Positions 2,611 to 33,941 of a stretch of DNA of 34,040 bases are shown piece by piece; position 1 is the first letter of the stretch; every line of letters begins with the position of its first letter. Position numbers and translations under genes: made by a program. Origin of the DNA: an uncultured Gammaproteobacteria bacterium (lineage in GTDB: Bacteria > Pseudomonadota > Gammaproteobacteria > Arenicellales > JAANXG01). Where the stretch lies: NCBI GenBank assembly GCA_947259875.1, contig CAMYNX010000028.1, positions 1-34,040 of the forward strand. The letters run 5' to 3'. The notes under the pieces were generated by a model. It worked only from the letters and a program-made list of their open reading frames with translations, had not been told where the DNA came from and did no database searches.

Positions 2611-2838
2611 TTAAATATCAGAAGGAAATGAAATCACAGTATCCGGAGATATCTTATCCGTCGGCACAAACCGCTCGGGGAGTTTTCCCGCTCGTGGCGG
2701 GGGTCGGGACGGCGATTGGGGGATTGCCTCGGTCTGCGGCTTCTCAGGACCGGATTGTGACGTGGTCGATGGTGACTGACCCATCGCCGGCATCGCCAGC
2801 ATCAACACCAGCACCAAACTTAGCAGGCTATTCGGCAT
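2611..2838 (-). CDS. Small exported proline-rich protein
   Basis: I place the start at the internal ATG at 2838 rather than the track start at 2880, because MPNSLLSLVLVLMLAMPAMGQ is a clear signal peptide with an AMG-Q cleavage site. The mature part is about 55 residues, rich in Pro, Ser and Gln (SPSRPPPRAGKLPERF), with no recognised domain. The start overlaps the 3' end of the FHA/PEGA gene and the stop is 10 bp before the ExbB-like gene, so it is part of the same operon. It is presumably a periplasmic accessory piece. No good ribosome site is seen, which fits translational coupling. Function unknown. Confidence 0.65.
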   Translation of the reverse strand: MPNSLLSLVLVLMLAMPAMGQSPSTTSQSGPEKPQTEAIPQSPSRPPPRAGKLPERFVPTDKISPDTVISFPSDI

Positions 2839-5164
2839 AACGCGCGATCCGGAATCCAAGATCTTGCCTTGGTTTGTCACTGTAATCCCGAAAACTCAAT
2901 CGCAGTTCGCTGATGGTCGAGTGTTTCCAACCGGCACCGCGCACTACGTGGTGGCGCCCGGACGCTGGTCCGATCGGGTCTCGTACCACCCGCGCACCGG
3001 CCACGTGGACGTCGTAGAAGTCGTGGCACCATTCTGCCACGTTCCCACCGACGTCGTGGACACCCAACGAGTTCGGTAGGAAGCTGCCGACCGGGGCGGT
3101 GACCGCAAATTGGTCGTTATAGGTCGAGAGTGTATTGGGGAGCAAGCCGGTGGCTGCGCGGTCGGCGTAATTACCTGCCGAGCCGGTCGGCGGATAGTTG
3201 TTTCCCCAGTCATATTTGGTCGGACTCGGACGCTCGGCATGGCGCGCCGCGTACTCCCATTCCGCCTCGGTAGGCAGACGATAACCGTTGGTCGGCGGCC
3301 GCACAGCGACCAGCTTTTCGCCCTGTTTCGAGTATGCCGGGATCAACCCGTCCTTCTCGCTCAACCAATTCAGATAGGCGGCAGCCTCGTCCCAGCGTAT
3401 GTCGACCACCGGTTGTTGGTCGTCGTCGAGACTTCGGCCATAGGCGGAACCCGAATTGTGCTCGGCCTTGAAACGGCGGAATTGTCCATTGGTAACCTCT
3501 TTGACGCCGAGATAGAACGCCCGGGTCAGCTCCACCTGGCGCAATTGCTCGTTTGCCCGCCGGCCCTGTTCGCGACGCGATGCACCCATGGTGAACTGCC
3601 CGGGCTTGATCAACCGCAACACATGACCCTCGCCGGTGGTGACCGTCTTAGCGATTGCGGACCGTTGCGGGCTCGCGGTAGTTCTGTTTAGCGTCACCGT
3701 CACCTCTTTGCTCACTCCTGCCCGGGGCGTGACGGTCACCCGGTAAGGTTCGTAACCCGGCTTTTTGAATTCCAGCTGGTGCGGTTCGGTGGTCAACTGC
3801 AAGCGCTGGGCGCCCTCGCCACGATCCTTGCCGTCGACATACAGTTGTGCATCGGGGGGATCGCTGACAATGAATAGCGCGCCGTACTCGGCGGGTAGCG
3901 TGACGTCCAGAGACTCGGTAGCCGCGGCTTTCAAACTCACCGTCTTGGTGACCGTCTTACGGCCGGCCCTGGACAACACGATATGATGTTCTTGTTTCGG
4001 AGTGAGCGTGAGTTCGAGCGGTGTCACCCCGAAATATTGACCGTCCATTGTTACCGAAGCGCCAACCGGCTCGCTGTTAATGGCAAGCAGTCCGTGTGAC
4101 AGTTTGAGCACGAACGGCTCGAGTGTCATCGCCTCACCAGCAACCACGGTAAGCTGTGAGCGAAACGGGTCGTGCTCGTCCAACCGTAGTTCGACTGCGT
4201 GCTCCCCCGAGAGCAGGTCCATGGTTGCCGGCGTTGTACCAACCTCTTCGTTGTCAATCCATAGTGAGGCGCCGCTTGGACTCGATGCGAACGACACCGG
4301 AGCCCAATCGGGTTGCAATGTGACGTCGACCTCCTGCGAGCGGCCCATGCCTTCAACGTTCAGATCGAGTTCAATTGGTTGGTAACGAACCGCGGTTATC
4401 TGAATCTGATGCGCACCAGCACGCAGCTCGAGATCCCGAATCGGTGTCACGCCGACCTGCCGACCGTCGACACTTACGGTCGCACCGGCGACCGGACTGC
4501 TGATCAGCGAGATGCGACCGGGAAGCTTTTGCATGTCGAACGCAAACTCCTGATGCGGTCCGCGGCGGATGTCGGCCCCACGGCTGAGCGGCTGATAGCC
4601 AGGCTTGCTGGCGACGATCTCATAGCTGCCGGGATAGACCAGATACCGTTCCTGCAACTTCAATACCGGCAAGGTTCCACGCAATTCGAAGTATTCCGGT
4701 TCGGGGGTGATCGTCACCGACACCGGGGTAGCGGTAAACACAAACACCGCGACCAATAACAGAACCAGGAACATTGCCAACACACCGAGCCGCAGCATGC
4801 GGCGGCTACCGCGTTTCGCCGCCGGGGCAGTGGCAAAGGTTGCCGGTTCACCGGCGCTTTCCTGTAGTTGCAGCGTTTGTCCGGTGAACACACACGCGAG
4901 CGTCACCGCACCGATTCTTACATGGTCGCCATCCCGCAACGGCGCAGGATCTGTAAGACGGCGCTCATTGAGCAATACCGTGATTGTGGGCACACCGGGC
5001 ACCAACCACGGGTGGCCACTACGGCACTCTACGTATGCGTATTCATTTTGGCTGCGGTCCCCGGATAAGGGAATATCCGCGGCTTCACCGCCAATGCTGA
5101 GGCGCTCGCCGTCGGCACATCGCCGGTCTTTTGCATTGGTTCCAGTAATTGTAAACGCGTTCAA
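2828..5164 (-). CDS. FHA-like / TM / PEGA-repeat protein with a non-catalytic formylglycine-enzyme-type domain
   Basis: About 778 residues from a TTG start. I prefer TTG at 5164 over ATG at 5179: GAGGAG lies 5 bases before the TTG, and TTGA overlaps the stop of the TPR gene. Residues ~20-105 look like a degenerate FHA fold (SIGGEAADIPL, LRDGDHVRIGAVTL) lacking the usual SxxH and NG residues. One membrane helix is near 125-150. Four or five PEGA-type repeats follow (VSVDGRQVGVTPI, SLWIDNEEVGTTPA, VTMDGQYFGVTPL, LYVDGKDRGEG). The last ~255 residues are an FGE-sulfatase (SUMF1-like) domain (GYRLPTEAEWEYAAR, GGNVAEWCHDFYD). The catalytic Cys pair normally after the RGGSW motif is absent (RGAGWKHSTISELRLSFRD), so formylglycine synthesis is unlikely. 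Probably an inner-membrane scaffold with a periplasmic binding domain. Confidence 0.85.
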   Translation of the reverse strand: MNAFTITGTNAKDRRCADGERLSIGGEAADIPLSGDRSQNEYAYVECRSGHPWLVPGVPTITVLLNERRLTDPAPLRDGDHVRIGAVTLACVFTGQTLQLQESAGEPATFATAPAAKRGSRRMLRLGVLAMFLVLLLVAVFVFTATPVSVTITPEPEYFELRGTLPVLKLQERYLVYPGSYEIVASKPGYQPLSRGADIRRGPHQEFAFDMQKLPGRISLISSPVAGATVSVDGRQVGVTPIRDLELRAGAHQIQITAVRYQPIELDLNVEGMGRSQEVDVTLQPDWAPVSFASSPSGASLWIDNEEVGTTPATMDLLSGEHAVELRLDEHDPFRSQLTVVAGEAMTLEPFVLKLSHGLLAINSEPVGASVTMDGQYFGVTPLELTLTPKQEHHIVLSRAGRKTVTKTVSLKAAATESLDVTLPAEYGALFIVSDPPDAQLYVDGKDRGEGAQRLQLTTEPHQLEFKKPGYEPYRVTVTPRAGVSKEVTVTLNRTTASPQRSAIAKTVTTGEGHVLRLIKPGQFTMGASRREQGRRANEQLRQVELTRAFYLGVKEVTNGQFRRFKAEHNSGSAYGRSLDDDQQPVVDIRWDEAAAYLNWLSEKDGLIPAYSKQGEKLVAVRPPTNGYRLPTEAEWEYAARHAERPSPTKYDWGNNYPPTGSAGNYADRAATGLLPNTLSTYNDQFAVTAPVGSFLPNSLGVHDVGGNVAEWCHDFYDVHVAGARVVRDPIGPASGRHHVVRGAGWKHSTISELRLSFRDYSDKPRQDLGFRIARYAE

Positions 5165-6591
5165 ATCTGCTCCTCGCATCTAACATCTATGGTTTGCAAG
5201 GCCGGCCCGGCCGTGACCTTCCATTCCACGCGCACATCGCGGTATCCAACCCGCGTCCCGCGCACACGGTAAGTGCCAGGCAACAACATCATCCGCGATT
5301 CCGAGAATCTGCCGAAACGGCCGACCCGATCGATGGACACCTCGGTTTGGTTGTCGGAGCGTATCAACACCGCCACCGGGGTGCTGGCGAGCCTCACCAG
5401 ATCCTCGAGGGTATCGAGTTTTTGCCGCAGTCGCGGCCCTTGGTCCGACAGCGACACCGCACTCTGTAACAGACGGTCAGCGTTGGCCCGCGGTTCGGGC
5501 GATTGCAGGCGATCGGGGGCGTCAAGATAGGTATCCAACTGCGCATGCAATTCGGCAAGCCGCTCGGCGTGCCGAACACCCTGCAACGCAAATTGCGCTT
5601 GCGGATCGATCGCCAGCACCGCCTCGTACTCGGTAATTACGTCCCGCCAGTGCTCTTCGTGTTCGCTTCGCTGAGCGCGTGTACGATGATGTGCAATCTT
5701 TTGGGCCTGTATCGCCCGCGTCAGCCGCCGTTGCGTATCCACCACCTCCGCCGACTCCGGGTTCAGCATGCGTGCACGCTCCAGTGCGCGGCGCGCCTCG
5801 GGCAGTGCCCCACTTTCGATTGCGGTCAATGCATCAGACATGGCTTCACGGAATTCAATCTGCTTGATTGTCGCCGTTACCCGCTCCACACCCTCACGCG
5901 CTTCGCGCGAGTCGGGATCCAGGCGCCGCGCGGCGCGGTACTGTTCTTCGGCCAACGTCCATTTACGGTCCTGCTCGTGCTCGCGTCCAGACGCCAATAT
6001 AACTGCCAGGCGATCGAGGGTTTTTGCTCGTGCCGCGCCCCGTTGTGCTTGTGCATGCTGTGGGTCGATGGCGAGCGCGATAGTGAAATGTTTCTGCGCC
6101 GATTTGGCGTCGTAGCTCTCAACTGCTTGCGCACCCTGTTCCAGGGCCGTGGTCAGCCGGTCGGCCTTGGACGCTTCCAGTGCCATCAACATGGTCGAGA
6201 CATCGCGATAAGTGATGGCCGCCGCCGCAAAGTTCTGATTGGTAAACTCGGCATCGCCCTCGGCGAGGCGGGTGAGCACCGTTTCATAGTCCGCGCCGCC
6301 CCAAACCCGAACCTGCTGCGCCTCAAGCACAGTCTGATGTTCAAGCAGCTGCTGCAATGCCCGTTCTGCCTCGCGTTTTTCACGCGCGAGTCGTACCTGT
6401 TCGGCTTTTGGCGCCATCGGTTTGGCCGCCTCGGGAGCCGGCCGGTCGTTAGACTCTTCGACGACCGCGCGTTGGTCTACGAAATCCGGAAGCACCCACA
6501 CCACAATCACCACGGCAGTCAATAAGATCATGAGCGCCGCCAGCAGCGTAATCCGGACCCAAACGGGTGCGTGAATCCGAGCGCGGGTCAC
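5161..6591 (-). CDS. Membrane-anchored TPR-repeat protein with C-terminal PEGA-like domain
   Basis: 476 residues from a GTG at 6591, chosen over the track ATG at 6630 because AGAGGAAA sits about 6 bases upstream. A short basic N-terminus is followed by one membrane helix (about 12-37, LLAALMILLTAVVIVVWVL). The rest should be periplasmic: charged helical segments and TPR-like helix pairs (YRDVSTMLMALEAS, HFTIALAIDPQHAQAQRGAAR, YRAARRLDPDSREAREGVER). The last ~75 residues resemble a PEGA unit (LLPGTYRVRGTRVGYRDV), as in the downstream protein. The stop overlaps the next start as TTGA. It probably acts as a protein-interaction scaffold for the channel/VWA complex. It may be the first gene of its own transcript, because a repeat and MITE separate it from the lipoprotein gene upstream. 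Confidence 0.82.
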   Translation of the reverse strand: MTRARIHAPVWVRITLLAALMILLTAVVIVVWVLPDFVDQRAVVEESNDRPAPEAAKPMAPKAEQVRLAREKREAERALQQLLEHQTVLEAQQVRVWGGADYETVLTRLAEGDAEFTNQNFAAAAITYRDVSTMLMALEASKADRLTTALEQGAQAVESYDAKSAQKHFTIALAIDPQHAQAQRGAARAKTLDRLAVILASGREHEQDRKWTLAEEQYRAARRLDPDSREAREGVERVTATIKQIEFREAMSDALTAIESGALPEARRALERARMLNPESAEVVDTQRRLTRAIQAQKIAHHRTRAQRSEHEEHWRDVITEYEAVLAIDPQAQFALQGVRHAERLAELHAQLDTYLDAPDRLQSPEPRANADRLLQSAVSLSDQGPRLRQKLDTLEDLVRLASTPVAVLIRSDNQTEVSIDRVGRFGRFSESRMMLLPGTYRVRGTRVGYRDVRVEWKVTAGPALQTIDVRCEEQI

Positions 6592-6639
6592 GCCGTTTCC
6601 TCTACCGCACCTGGAGCCCGCATATTGCACCGAGGCGCC

Positions 6640-7090
6640 CCGCCCTTATTCATGGTACACAACTGGAGACACCCACAGAGCTTCATCCCGGTAATGACAA
6701 TATTGAACTCCTTAGGTTTCTTGGCAAGAATAAGGGCTGGGCTATCCCGACCCTGACTGGTCCTCGCACGCCTGCGCTTGGCCTTCACTCGATCCAACGC
6801 CCGCTATGGGTCTTATTCTGTTGAAAAACTCCAAATTTTTCGAAACGACAAAGTCATTTTTCCTACAGGCAATTTTAAATTCTGATACATGGGGGGGATC
6901 TTATAATTAACGATTTCTTCCTACCGAGTCACCGGCGAGCTTGTGCATAAAATACTACGCCAGGTTTAGGACGTATTAGTATTTACCAGAAAATTCGCCT
7001 TCCCAATTATTCGAGTTTTTCAACAGAATCGGTCTCGCTCCAGGCACCGCCCTCAGCTGCACGAATCCTGCGTCAGCATCCGGGATCCTG
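6640..7090. repeat. Dispersed ~229-bp repeat, copy A, split by a MITE-like insertion
   Basis: If 6814-7035 (the insertion plus one copy of its 5-bp duplication) is removed, 229 bp remain that align end to end with the reverse complement of 17901-18130 (230 bp). Shared blocks include CCGCC-TTATTC at one end, CTATCCC, CGCACGCCTG versus CGAACGCCTG, CTTCACTC, and CATCCGGGATCCT at the other end. The first ~100 bp are bounded by an inverted pair GCCCTTATTC / GAATAAGGGC. The copies are diverged, so the repeat is old. It fills most of the intergenic space between the lipoprotein and TPR genes. Small ORFs on the track here are repeat-derived. Confidence 0.7.
6814..7030. mobile_element. 217-bp MITE-like element with perfect 17-bp terminal inverted repeats
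   Basis: ATTCTGTTGAAAAACTC at 6815-6831 is repeated as its exact reverse complement at 7013-7029. The element is flanked by the 5-bp direct repeat GGTCT (6809-6813 and 7031-7035), as expected for a target-site duplication. It is AT-rich, unlike its surroundings, and has no ORF long enough for a transposase, so it would need one in trans. The interrupted target is repeat copy A; copy B at 17901-18130 is uninterrupted and gives the pre-insertion state. The parent IS family is not identified. Confidence 0.75.
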
Positions 7091-7122
7091 GTGAGAAATG
7101 CGGGCTCGATCACCACGTGGGG

Positions 7123-17877: not shown

Positions 17878-17900
17878 CGGGCTCGCCCGTGTGTTGCATC

Positions 17901-18130
17901 AAGGATCCCGGATGATGGCGAAGGTATCGGGCGGTTGGACGCCGCGGTGGAATGAAACGCATAGCCGTAGCTATGGGTTGAGTGAAGCGCAAGTCCAGGC
18001 GTTCGAGACCGAGCCAGCGCTGGGATAGTCCCGCGACTATTCATGGTACGGGACGGAGAGTTCCGCAGTTTCACTTCCATTAAATAGCAATATCAGATTC
18101 TCCAATTTGTCTAGCGAGAATAATGGCGGG
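17901..18130 (-). repeat. Dispersed ~230-bp repeat, copy B (uninterrupted)
   Basis: Reverse complement of the repeat at 6640-7090 once the MITE is removed there. It begins GGATCCCGGATGATGG on the plus strand and ends near AGAATAATGGCGGG. It fills the gap between the SDR and the second sulfhydrylase gene. No gene lies here; small track ORFs are repeat-derived. Confidence 0.7.
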
Positions 18131-18152
18131 ATGCCTTGGTGTAACACACTCG

Positions 18153-19448
<1,296 letters not shown>

Positions 19449-32143: not shown

Positions 32144-33448
32144 TCATTGATACACACTCGGCAGACCTAGCCCAGCAAAGTATTTATTCGGTAAAGCATA
32201 ATACAATGCCGGACTTTTACTTAGTCGCCAAGGCCCATGTGCAGACTTGCAGGTATTCCAGGCAAGCTGCCGCTCAACACCTCGTCTGCGTAGCTCACGA
32301 TAACCGCGTCGCCCCCACTGTTTCCAAAGGTAACTCCGCAGTCGCCGTCGTATCCATTTATCGATATCTCGCAATGGCGAGACCACTTCCGCCAGCTGAA
32401 AATACGCTTTCCAACCGTGGAGGTACTTTCTCAGTTCCGCGATAATCGTATGGATGGTTCGACCTCGTGTTCTAACGCTGATGCTTCGTACTTTCTGTTT
32501 GAAGGCCGTTAACGCCTTGCCGCTCACCTTGAGTCGTTGGTCTTTCGGACTCATAGTAAAGCCAAGAAAGCATCGTCGCCAAGGCCGATCAACGGCGCTT
32601 TTGGCATCGTTGATCGTTAGTTTGAGTGTCGCGTGCAGGAACCGTTTCAGGTTGCCCAGCACACGATCACCCGCGCGTTTGCTTCTGACATAGATGTTGC
32701 AATCATCCGCGTAGCGCACAAAACAATGACCTCGCGCTTCCAGTGTTTTATCCAGTTCATCCAGTAGCAGGTTAGCCAATAGCGGCGATAATGGCCCGCC
32801 TTGAGGTGTCCCTGCCCGGTTCGCGTTCCGTTTGCCGTTGATGCTGATATCCGATTTAAGTATACGGTTAATCAGTATCAAAACATGCCGGTCTTCGATC
32901 CGTCGCTTGATGCGTTGCAGGAGGATGTCATGGTTTACACTGTCGAAGAACTTCTCTAAATCCATATCCACCGTCCAGCAGTAGCCTTCACGCACATAGT
33001 GTTGTGCTTGGCGCACCGCTTGATGGGCGGATCGTTTCGGACGAAATCCAAAACTGAATTCGGAGAAGCTGTCATCCCATTCACGTTGCAAGAGCTGTAA
33101 CAACGCTTGTTGGATGAAACGATCAATGACGGCAGGAACACCCAAGTGTCTTTTGCCACCATTCGGTTTGGGTATGCTGATACGCCGCACCGCTTGGGGA
33201 CGATAAGTGCCCGTGCGTAATTGATCTTTGAGGGTGAGCCAATGGTGTTTGAGGTAAACCGGGAGTTGTTCGACGGTCATGCCATCGACCCCCGGTGCAC
33301 CTTTATTGCGTATCACTTGCTTCAGAGCACGTCTTAGATTGTCCCGTTCTAATACCTGTTCCATGAGCGATATAACCGGAGTGTCTTCTTTGTTGACGCC
33401 AACCCCTGGTTCATCGGGTCTGATGCAATCCAAGGGTTCCGTTAACAT
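32144..33448 (-). CDS. ltrA: Group II intron reverse transcriptase/maturase
   Basis: 434 residues from the ATG at 33448, chosen because GAGAGGAG lies ~7 bases upstream; the track start at 33481 lacks one. RT motifs: GAPGVDGMTVEQL, FGFRPKRSAHQAV, AGTPQGGPLSPLLANL and the active site FVRYADDCNIYV (YADD). Then comes thumb/domain X (LRKYLHGWKAYF, RRRLRSYLWKQWGRRGYREL). No HNH endonuclease follows, as in IIC introns. It splices the intron RNA and copies it into DNA. Ending in ALPNKYFAGLGLPSVYQ, it looks full length and possibly active. Confidence 0.92.
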   Translation of the reverse strand: MLTEPLDCIRPDEPGVGVNKEDTPVISLMEQVLERDNLRRALKQVIRNKGAPGVDGMTVEQLPVYLKHHWLTLKDQLRTGTYRPQAVRRISIPKPNGGKRHLGVPAVIDRFIQQALLQLLQREWDDSFSEFSFGFRPKRSAHQAVRQAQHYVREGYCWTVDMDLEKFFDSVNHDILLQRIKRRIEDRHVLILINRILKSDISINGKRNANRAGTPQGGPLSPLLANLLLDELDKTLEARGHCFVRYADDCNIYVRSKRAGDRVLGNLKRFLHATLKLTINDAKSAVDRPWRRCFLGFTMSPKDQRLKVSGKALTAFKQKVRSISVRTRGRTIHTIIAELRKYLHGWKAYFQLAEVVSPLRDIDKWIRRRLRSYLWKQWGRRGYRELRRRGVERQLAWNTCKSAHGPWRLSKSPALYYALPNKYFAGLGLPSVYQ

Positions 33449-33941
33449 TGACTGCTCCTCTCGTTTATTCTCAATTTCCATCGAGAGACCGTTCGGACCT
33501 TCATGATAAAACGTTGCAGATTGGCTTATCTGTTTCTCTGTCTTTCAACATTGAGTGCCTAAATAGCCTCACCTGTTGTTATCACTAGTACGTCCTATGC
33601 TGACTTCTGCCCGCGGATCACATGAAATTGCTTCCATGTCAGTCCATCCCTGAACCACAGACAGATCTCCCGGGGTAAGACACAAAACTGTCGTTGCGTA
33701 AACGCCGAATTTATAAAACGTATCCCAATTGCAGATGGAAGACTTCGTGGTCACGTGCCCACTCGTCTCAGATACGTCACACCTCATATCCGGTTCTTGT
33801 TCATCGCCCCGCAACTTTGGATTGGGCTTCCTTCAGCTATCACCTCGCGGCGATAACCTTGCCCTTCTCCTAGCCTTCGGCTCTGCGATGACCTGGCAAG
33901 AGGACTTCCACCTCTCTAGTTTTGCGCCATGCCCGGCACAC

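Follow-up and report, generated by a model that had tools for sequence, protein, structure and literature searches.

The stretch of DNA analyzed here (34,040 nucleotides from an uncultured gammaproteobacterium; hereafter, the window) contains two copies of a dispersed repeat, one of which is interrupted by a short segment with inverted ends. The question raised by this locus is whether the segment was inserted into the repeat and, if so, what kinds of elements the two represent and in which order they arrived. We conclude, with high confidence, that two transposase-less mobile elements were inserted in succession, first a host element and then, into it, a MITE with ends of the IS1182 type. The locus is thus a MITE inside a MITE, and both are of known kinds, as both MITEs that carry the ends of insertion sequences and small elements that duplicate TA have been described (PMC2229807); it is the order of events that is unusually clean.

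The first-pass annotation read the inner segment as an element of 217 bp that has perfect inverted ends of 17 bp and is flanked by GGTCT, and this description is confirmed. The element occupies positions 6814-7030 of the forward strand and carries no transposase; its left terminal inverted repeat (TIR), ATTCTGTTGAAAAACTC, lies at 6815-6831 (forward strand), and an exact inverted copy of it forms the right TIR at 7013-7029 (reverse strand). The flanking GGTCT copies are at 6809-6813 and 7031-7035. Folded as a single strand, the element is more stable than all 200 of 200 shuffled sequences (z = -3.97). A search with the 17-bp end, suggested earlier as a route to other copies and to the parent, returned 8 forward and 7 reverse matches at two or fewer mismatches in the genome of origin, compared with 2 for the control. 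Further copies of the MITE are present in contigs C323, C41, C121, C206, and C275 of this genome, and two more MITEs, in C244 and C249, have the ends of the window MITE and a different interior. The C244 copy (G000:C244:4806-5139, locus L045) belongs to a second group of MITEs whose ends are of the IS1182 type; its duplicated tail, joined by Ns, is probably an assembly artefact. Across the genome of origin and related genomes, relatives of the window MITE range from about 62% identity up to 99% for one partial copy.

Filled and empty versions of the repeat had been reported to coexist inside the window, which proved correct: once the insert and one GGTCT are removed, the remaining 229 bp can be aligned with the reverse complement of 17901-18130. 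This alignment has 226 columns, 7 gap positions, and an identity of 66.8%, and its score of 163 is far above that of shuffled sequences (mean -0.3, sd 9, maximum 31). The further claim that the empty copy fixes the insertion boundaries stands only after a change of reference. Judged by its sequence, the 17.9-kb paralogue by itself is too diverged for a base-exact breakpoint; the orthologous site in a related genome, G002, fixes the boundary far better. This site was found by joining the flanks of each of the two host copies and searching them against 13 genomes of the same family. At the site of the first host copy (site 1), G002 has a host repeat that lacks the MITE and shows only one GGTCT at the insertion point (..GCCATG-GGTCTCGCTCC..); its sequence across the junction reads ..CGCTCGCCATGGGTCTCGCTCC.., and its identity to the window is 85.6% over 396 columns. 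In G004, G005, and G003, site 1 contains no host repeat at all. Site 1 is thus known in three states, namely empty, with the host element, and with the host element plus the MITE.

These observations bear directly on the reading of the 217-bp segment as an original part of the repeat that was precisely deleted from the other copies. A deletion between the two GGTCT copies would indeed leave one, as in G002. We nevertheless regard such a history as extremely improbable: the segment has transposon ends and is found at other genomic places, 13 loci with other MITE copies having no host-repeat end within the flanks examined. The first-pass annotation had itself pointed to the other copies of the repeat as the place where an original segment should recur, and it is absent from every other host copy examined. 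The G002 empty site and this absence together support the nested insertion.

The target duplication is a more subtle matter. GGTCT is present on both sides of the MITE and only once in G002; its length cannot, however, be called fixed, as was claimed, given the rule followed by the family. Among 69 insertions with these ends, the duplication is mostly 4 bp, with GGCC, GGTC, or GACC on both sides; the outer neighbor of ATTCTG is usually G and that of CAGAAT usually C, with one of the same three tetranucleotides beyond. An apparent match of 5 bp results where the element's terminal G or C happens to be identical to the flanking base, which is about as frequent on one side as on the other. The window copy has TT between GGTC and ATTCTG; the duplication may therefore be read either as the 5-bp GGTCT flanking a 217-bp element or as the usual 4 bp, in which case the left copy at 6809-6813 would be GGTC plus one extra T.

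The kinship of the insert is indicated by its ends, which belong to elements of the IS1182 family. The end pattern GATTCTGTTGAAAAASTC was found in named genomes in at least 118 stretches, most of them from Pseudomonas and other Proteobacteria, and the paired ends form two size classes, one of about 118-218 bp (MITEs) and the other of 1.53-1.61 kb. Both long elements that were profile-tested encode IS1182 transposases (NF033551), and tblastn detected an NF033551-type IS1182 transposase in most of the remaining long end pairs as well; identical 17-18 bp ends thus occur on elements that bear an IS1182 transposase. A genome of the same genus also contains an insertion sequence (G005:C149) that measures about 1.59 kb, includes an open frame of 478 aa, and has ends matching those of the MITE. 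Because its ends are those of transposase-encoding IS1182 elements, including this same-genus one, we classify the insert, on sequence grounds, as an IS1182-type MITE. The assembly of the genome of origin yielded no intact IS1182 parent, only a fragment of 96 bp on the edge of a contig (C189:4-99).

The MITE shares with the IS1182 family, and with the MITEs that have its ends, the TIR ATTCTGTTGAAAAA(C/G)TC and the GGYC/GACC target, and it resembles transposase-less copies of 150-218 bp in Pseudomonas and other bacteria. It differs from full IS1182 elements in its interior and in the apparent 5-bp duplication of the window copy. As similarity to known IS1182 elements is confined to the TIR, with little shared beyond it, an origin of the MITE as their simple deletion product was rejected. 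The longer match in L181 lacks a transposase and appears to be related to the MITE rather than to be an insertion sequence. It should be noted that many Pseudomonas genomes (loci L076-L189) contain a MITE of 178 bp whose ends are of the same IS1182 type.

Since the MITE ends match those of the IS1182 family, we infer an IS1182-type transposase, acting in trans, as the most likely mover of the MITE. The family includes palindrome-targeting members, and for one member, IS1272, replacement of stem-loops has been reported (PMC5678879); the target considered here sits in a hairpin-rich element, so that insertion could be imagined to have replaced a stem-loop rather than to have produced a short duplication. 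This mode of entry is very unlikely, as the G002 empty site keeps the flanks and one GGTCT, nothing having been replaced, and most family copies show 4-bp duplications. Insertion with a short duplication thus remains our reading. Insertion sequences inside palindromic REP repeats are known (PMC1525189), and the window MITE is like them in lying inside a palindromic dispersed repeat; unlike the REP-targeting insertion sequences, it is represented in the host repeat by just one copy, with no sign of specific targeting.

Turning to the host element, the limits assigned to the repeat in the first-pass annotation (6640-7090, 230 bp) are too narrow, as its real inverted ends lie at 6616-6635 and 7087-7105. 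The first copy, recognized by its own TIRs and by its absent and present states in relatives, spans 6616-7105 on the forward strand and measures 490 bp as it stands, or 268 bp without the MITE and one copy of the duplication. Its left TIR (6616-6635, forward strand), GCCCGCATATTGCACCGAGG, matches at 6617-6635 with one mismatch; its right TIR (7087-7105, reverse strand) is a variant, GCCCGCATTTCTCACCAGG, matched at 7090-7106 with no mismatches, and the same variant end is found at both termini of another host element copy, at site L331:17046. The flanks of this first copy are degenerate, with GA/TC in place of TA, and the empty relatives at site 1 are too diverged to reveal the duplication of the host element there. 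Site 1 is an intergenic gap between two co-directional ORFs. Downstream of it lies a 783-aa ORF (2828-5179, reverse strand) that contains an FGE-sulfatase domain as well as PEGA domains and adjoins a TPR ORF. The second copy, uninterrupted and 269 bp long, occupies 17885-18153 on the reverse strand, with TIRs at both ends and orthologous empty sites (site 2) in G002, G004, and G007; its terminal TAG is the stop codon of an upstream PLP-enzyme ORF.

The TIR consensus of the host family is (Y)TARCCCGYATATTGCACCAAGG. The genome of origin contains 236 such ends at two or fewer mismatches, versus none for the reversed-pattern control, and the relatives contain from 0 to 284. In a sample of 776 kb, 62 paired elements were recovered, 61 of them 61-353 bp long and the last being the interrupted 490-bp copy, and most have TA flanking both ends. 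For 12 host elements, the flanks were joined minus one TA and searched in three relatives. Several of the empty sites found are equal in length across the junction and have one CTAG, TTAG, or CTAA in the position of the YTA..TAR of the filled copies (for example, L317:8636 and L321:7833, each in three genomes, as well as L321:2716 and L331:17046). Because orthologous empty sites carry a single YTAR at equal length, insertion with TA duplication at YTAR targets is established; this abundant repeat of the bacterial family is thus a mobile element.

One might instead regard the repeat as a structured RNA or a REP/BIME-type palindrome that spread by other means. Its fold is better than that of 200 of 200 shuffled sequences (z = -3.2), and its few covarying pairs and mosaic interior could be taken in the same sense. 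We find this unlikely in view of the long, near-identical TIRs at both ends, the TA duplication, and the same-length empty sites, which are classic signs of insertion; moreover, covariation is weak, with double changes in just 2 of 33 predicted pairs, and an Rfam scan of the window returned only a group II intron and no match to the host element.

As a TIR-bounded mobile element, the host repeat is comparable to ERIC/RU-1, Correia/NEMIS, and RUP (PMC2229807), being likewise short, TIR-bounded, with TA ends, intergenic, hairpin-forming, and present in a hundred or more copies, and it differs from ERIC, Correia, and RUP in being mostly longer and in its strongly mosaic interior (61-353 bp). It resembles this class in kind only, by general features and not by direct comparison of sequences. 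RUP has a matching transposon, IS630-Spn1, whereas a PF13358 search found no such partner for the host element: the sole IS630-type gene of its own genome has no host TIRs beside it (about a sixth of the genome was read) and was rejected as a parent. Host ends were likewise absent from IMG/VR, and the element was not found in plasmids. A Tc1/mariner-IS630-type or other TA-specific transposase would be compatible with the TA duplication at YTAR.

The proposed history, the simplest one for this site, draws on what is observed, namely boundaries, a multicopy nature, shared ends, and three site states in related genomes. In the first step, an element of about 270 bp, bounded by TIRs (ends YTARCCCGYATATTGCACCAAGG) and duplicating TA, entered the intergenic gap in a common ancestor with G002; in the second, after the split from G002, the 217-bp MITE entered the host element at GGTC(T), duplicating its target. 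In our opinion, the significance of the locus is that an ordered three-layer history can be followed within one genus, with boundaries, duplication, and order read rather than assumed. Three features of the host family, its missing transposase, its frequent position at stop codons, and its mosaic interior, thereby become concrete questions.

With regard to the second feature, 17 of the 62 host elements end in a TAR that serves as the stop codon of a neighboring gene; among background YTAR sites, the proportion is 13% (p = 0.002). Targeting of stop codons is not claimed, as the enrichment is about two-fold and the ORF calls are rough. The stop codon is already present in empty relatives, for example at L317:8636; TA duplication together with a TIR that begins with R restores it.

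The third feature is that host elements have common ends and differing inner hairpins, some with short nested inserts such as CTTGTCCCCGCACAGCAGGGGAA. L264, L260, L273, and others carry an alternative inner module, AGAAAA..AGGGGTCGGAGTCACAGACTCCG..CCTATTTTTC, in place of the CATAGCTACGGCTATG hairpin. At site 2, empty in the three genomes named above, G005 has a related element (L303, about 1808-2110) that agrees with the window copy in its ends and left arm and differs in its inner module (AAAAAATGGGGTCGGGGTCACAGACTCCG..). The difference may reflect either independent insertion at one target or in-place exchange of the module. From this one site, we offer, as a tentative and rather doubtful proposal, that members of the host family are mobile hairpins of modular build, which keep their ends but exchange interior modules in place, perhaps through hairpin-replacing transposases. 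If true, in-place module exchange would constitute a distinct route of bacterial repeat evolution.

The group II intron of the window lies at 32144-33854 on the reverse strand. The D1-D4 RNA of the intron is recognized by RF02001 at 33680-33854. Its ORF, at 32144-33481 on the same strand, encodes domains of a reverse transcriptase and a maturase.
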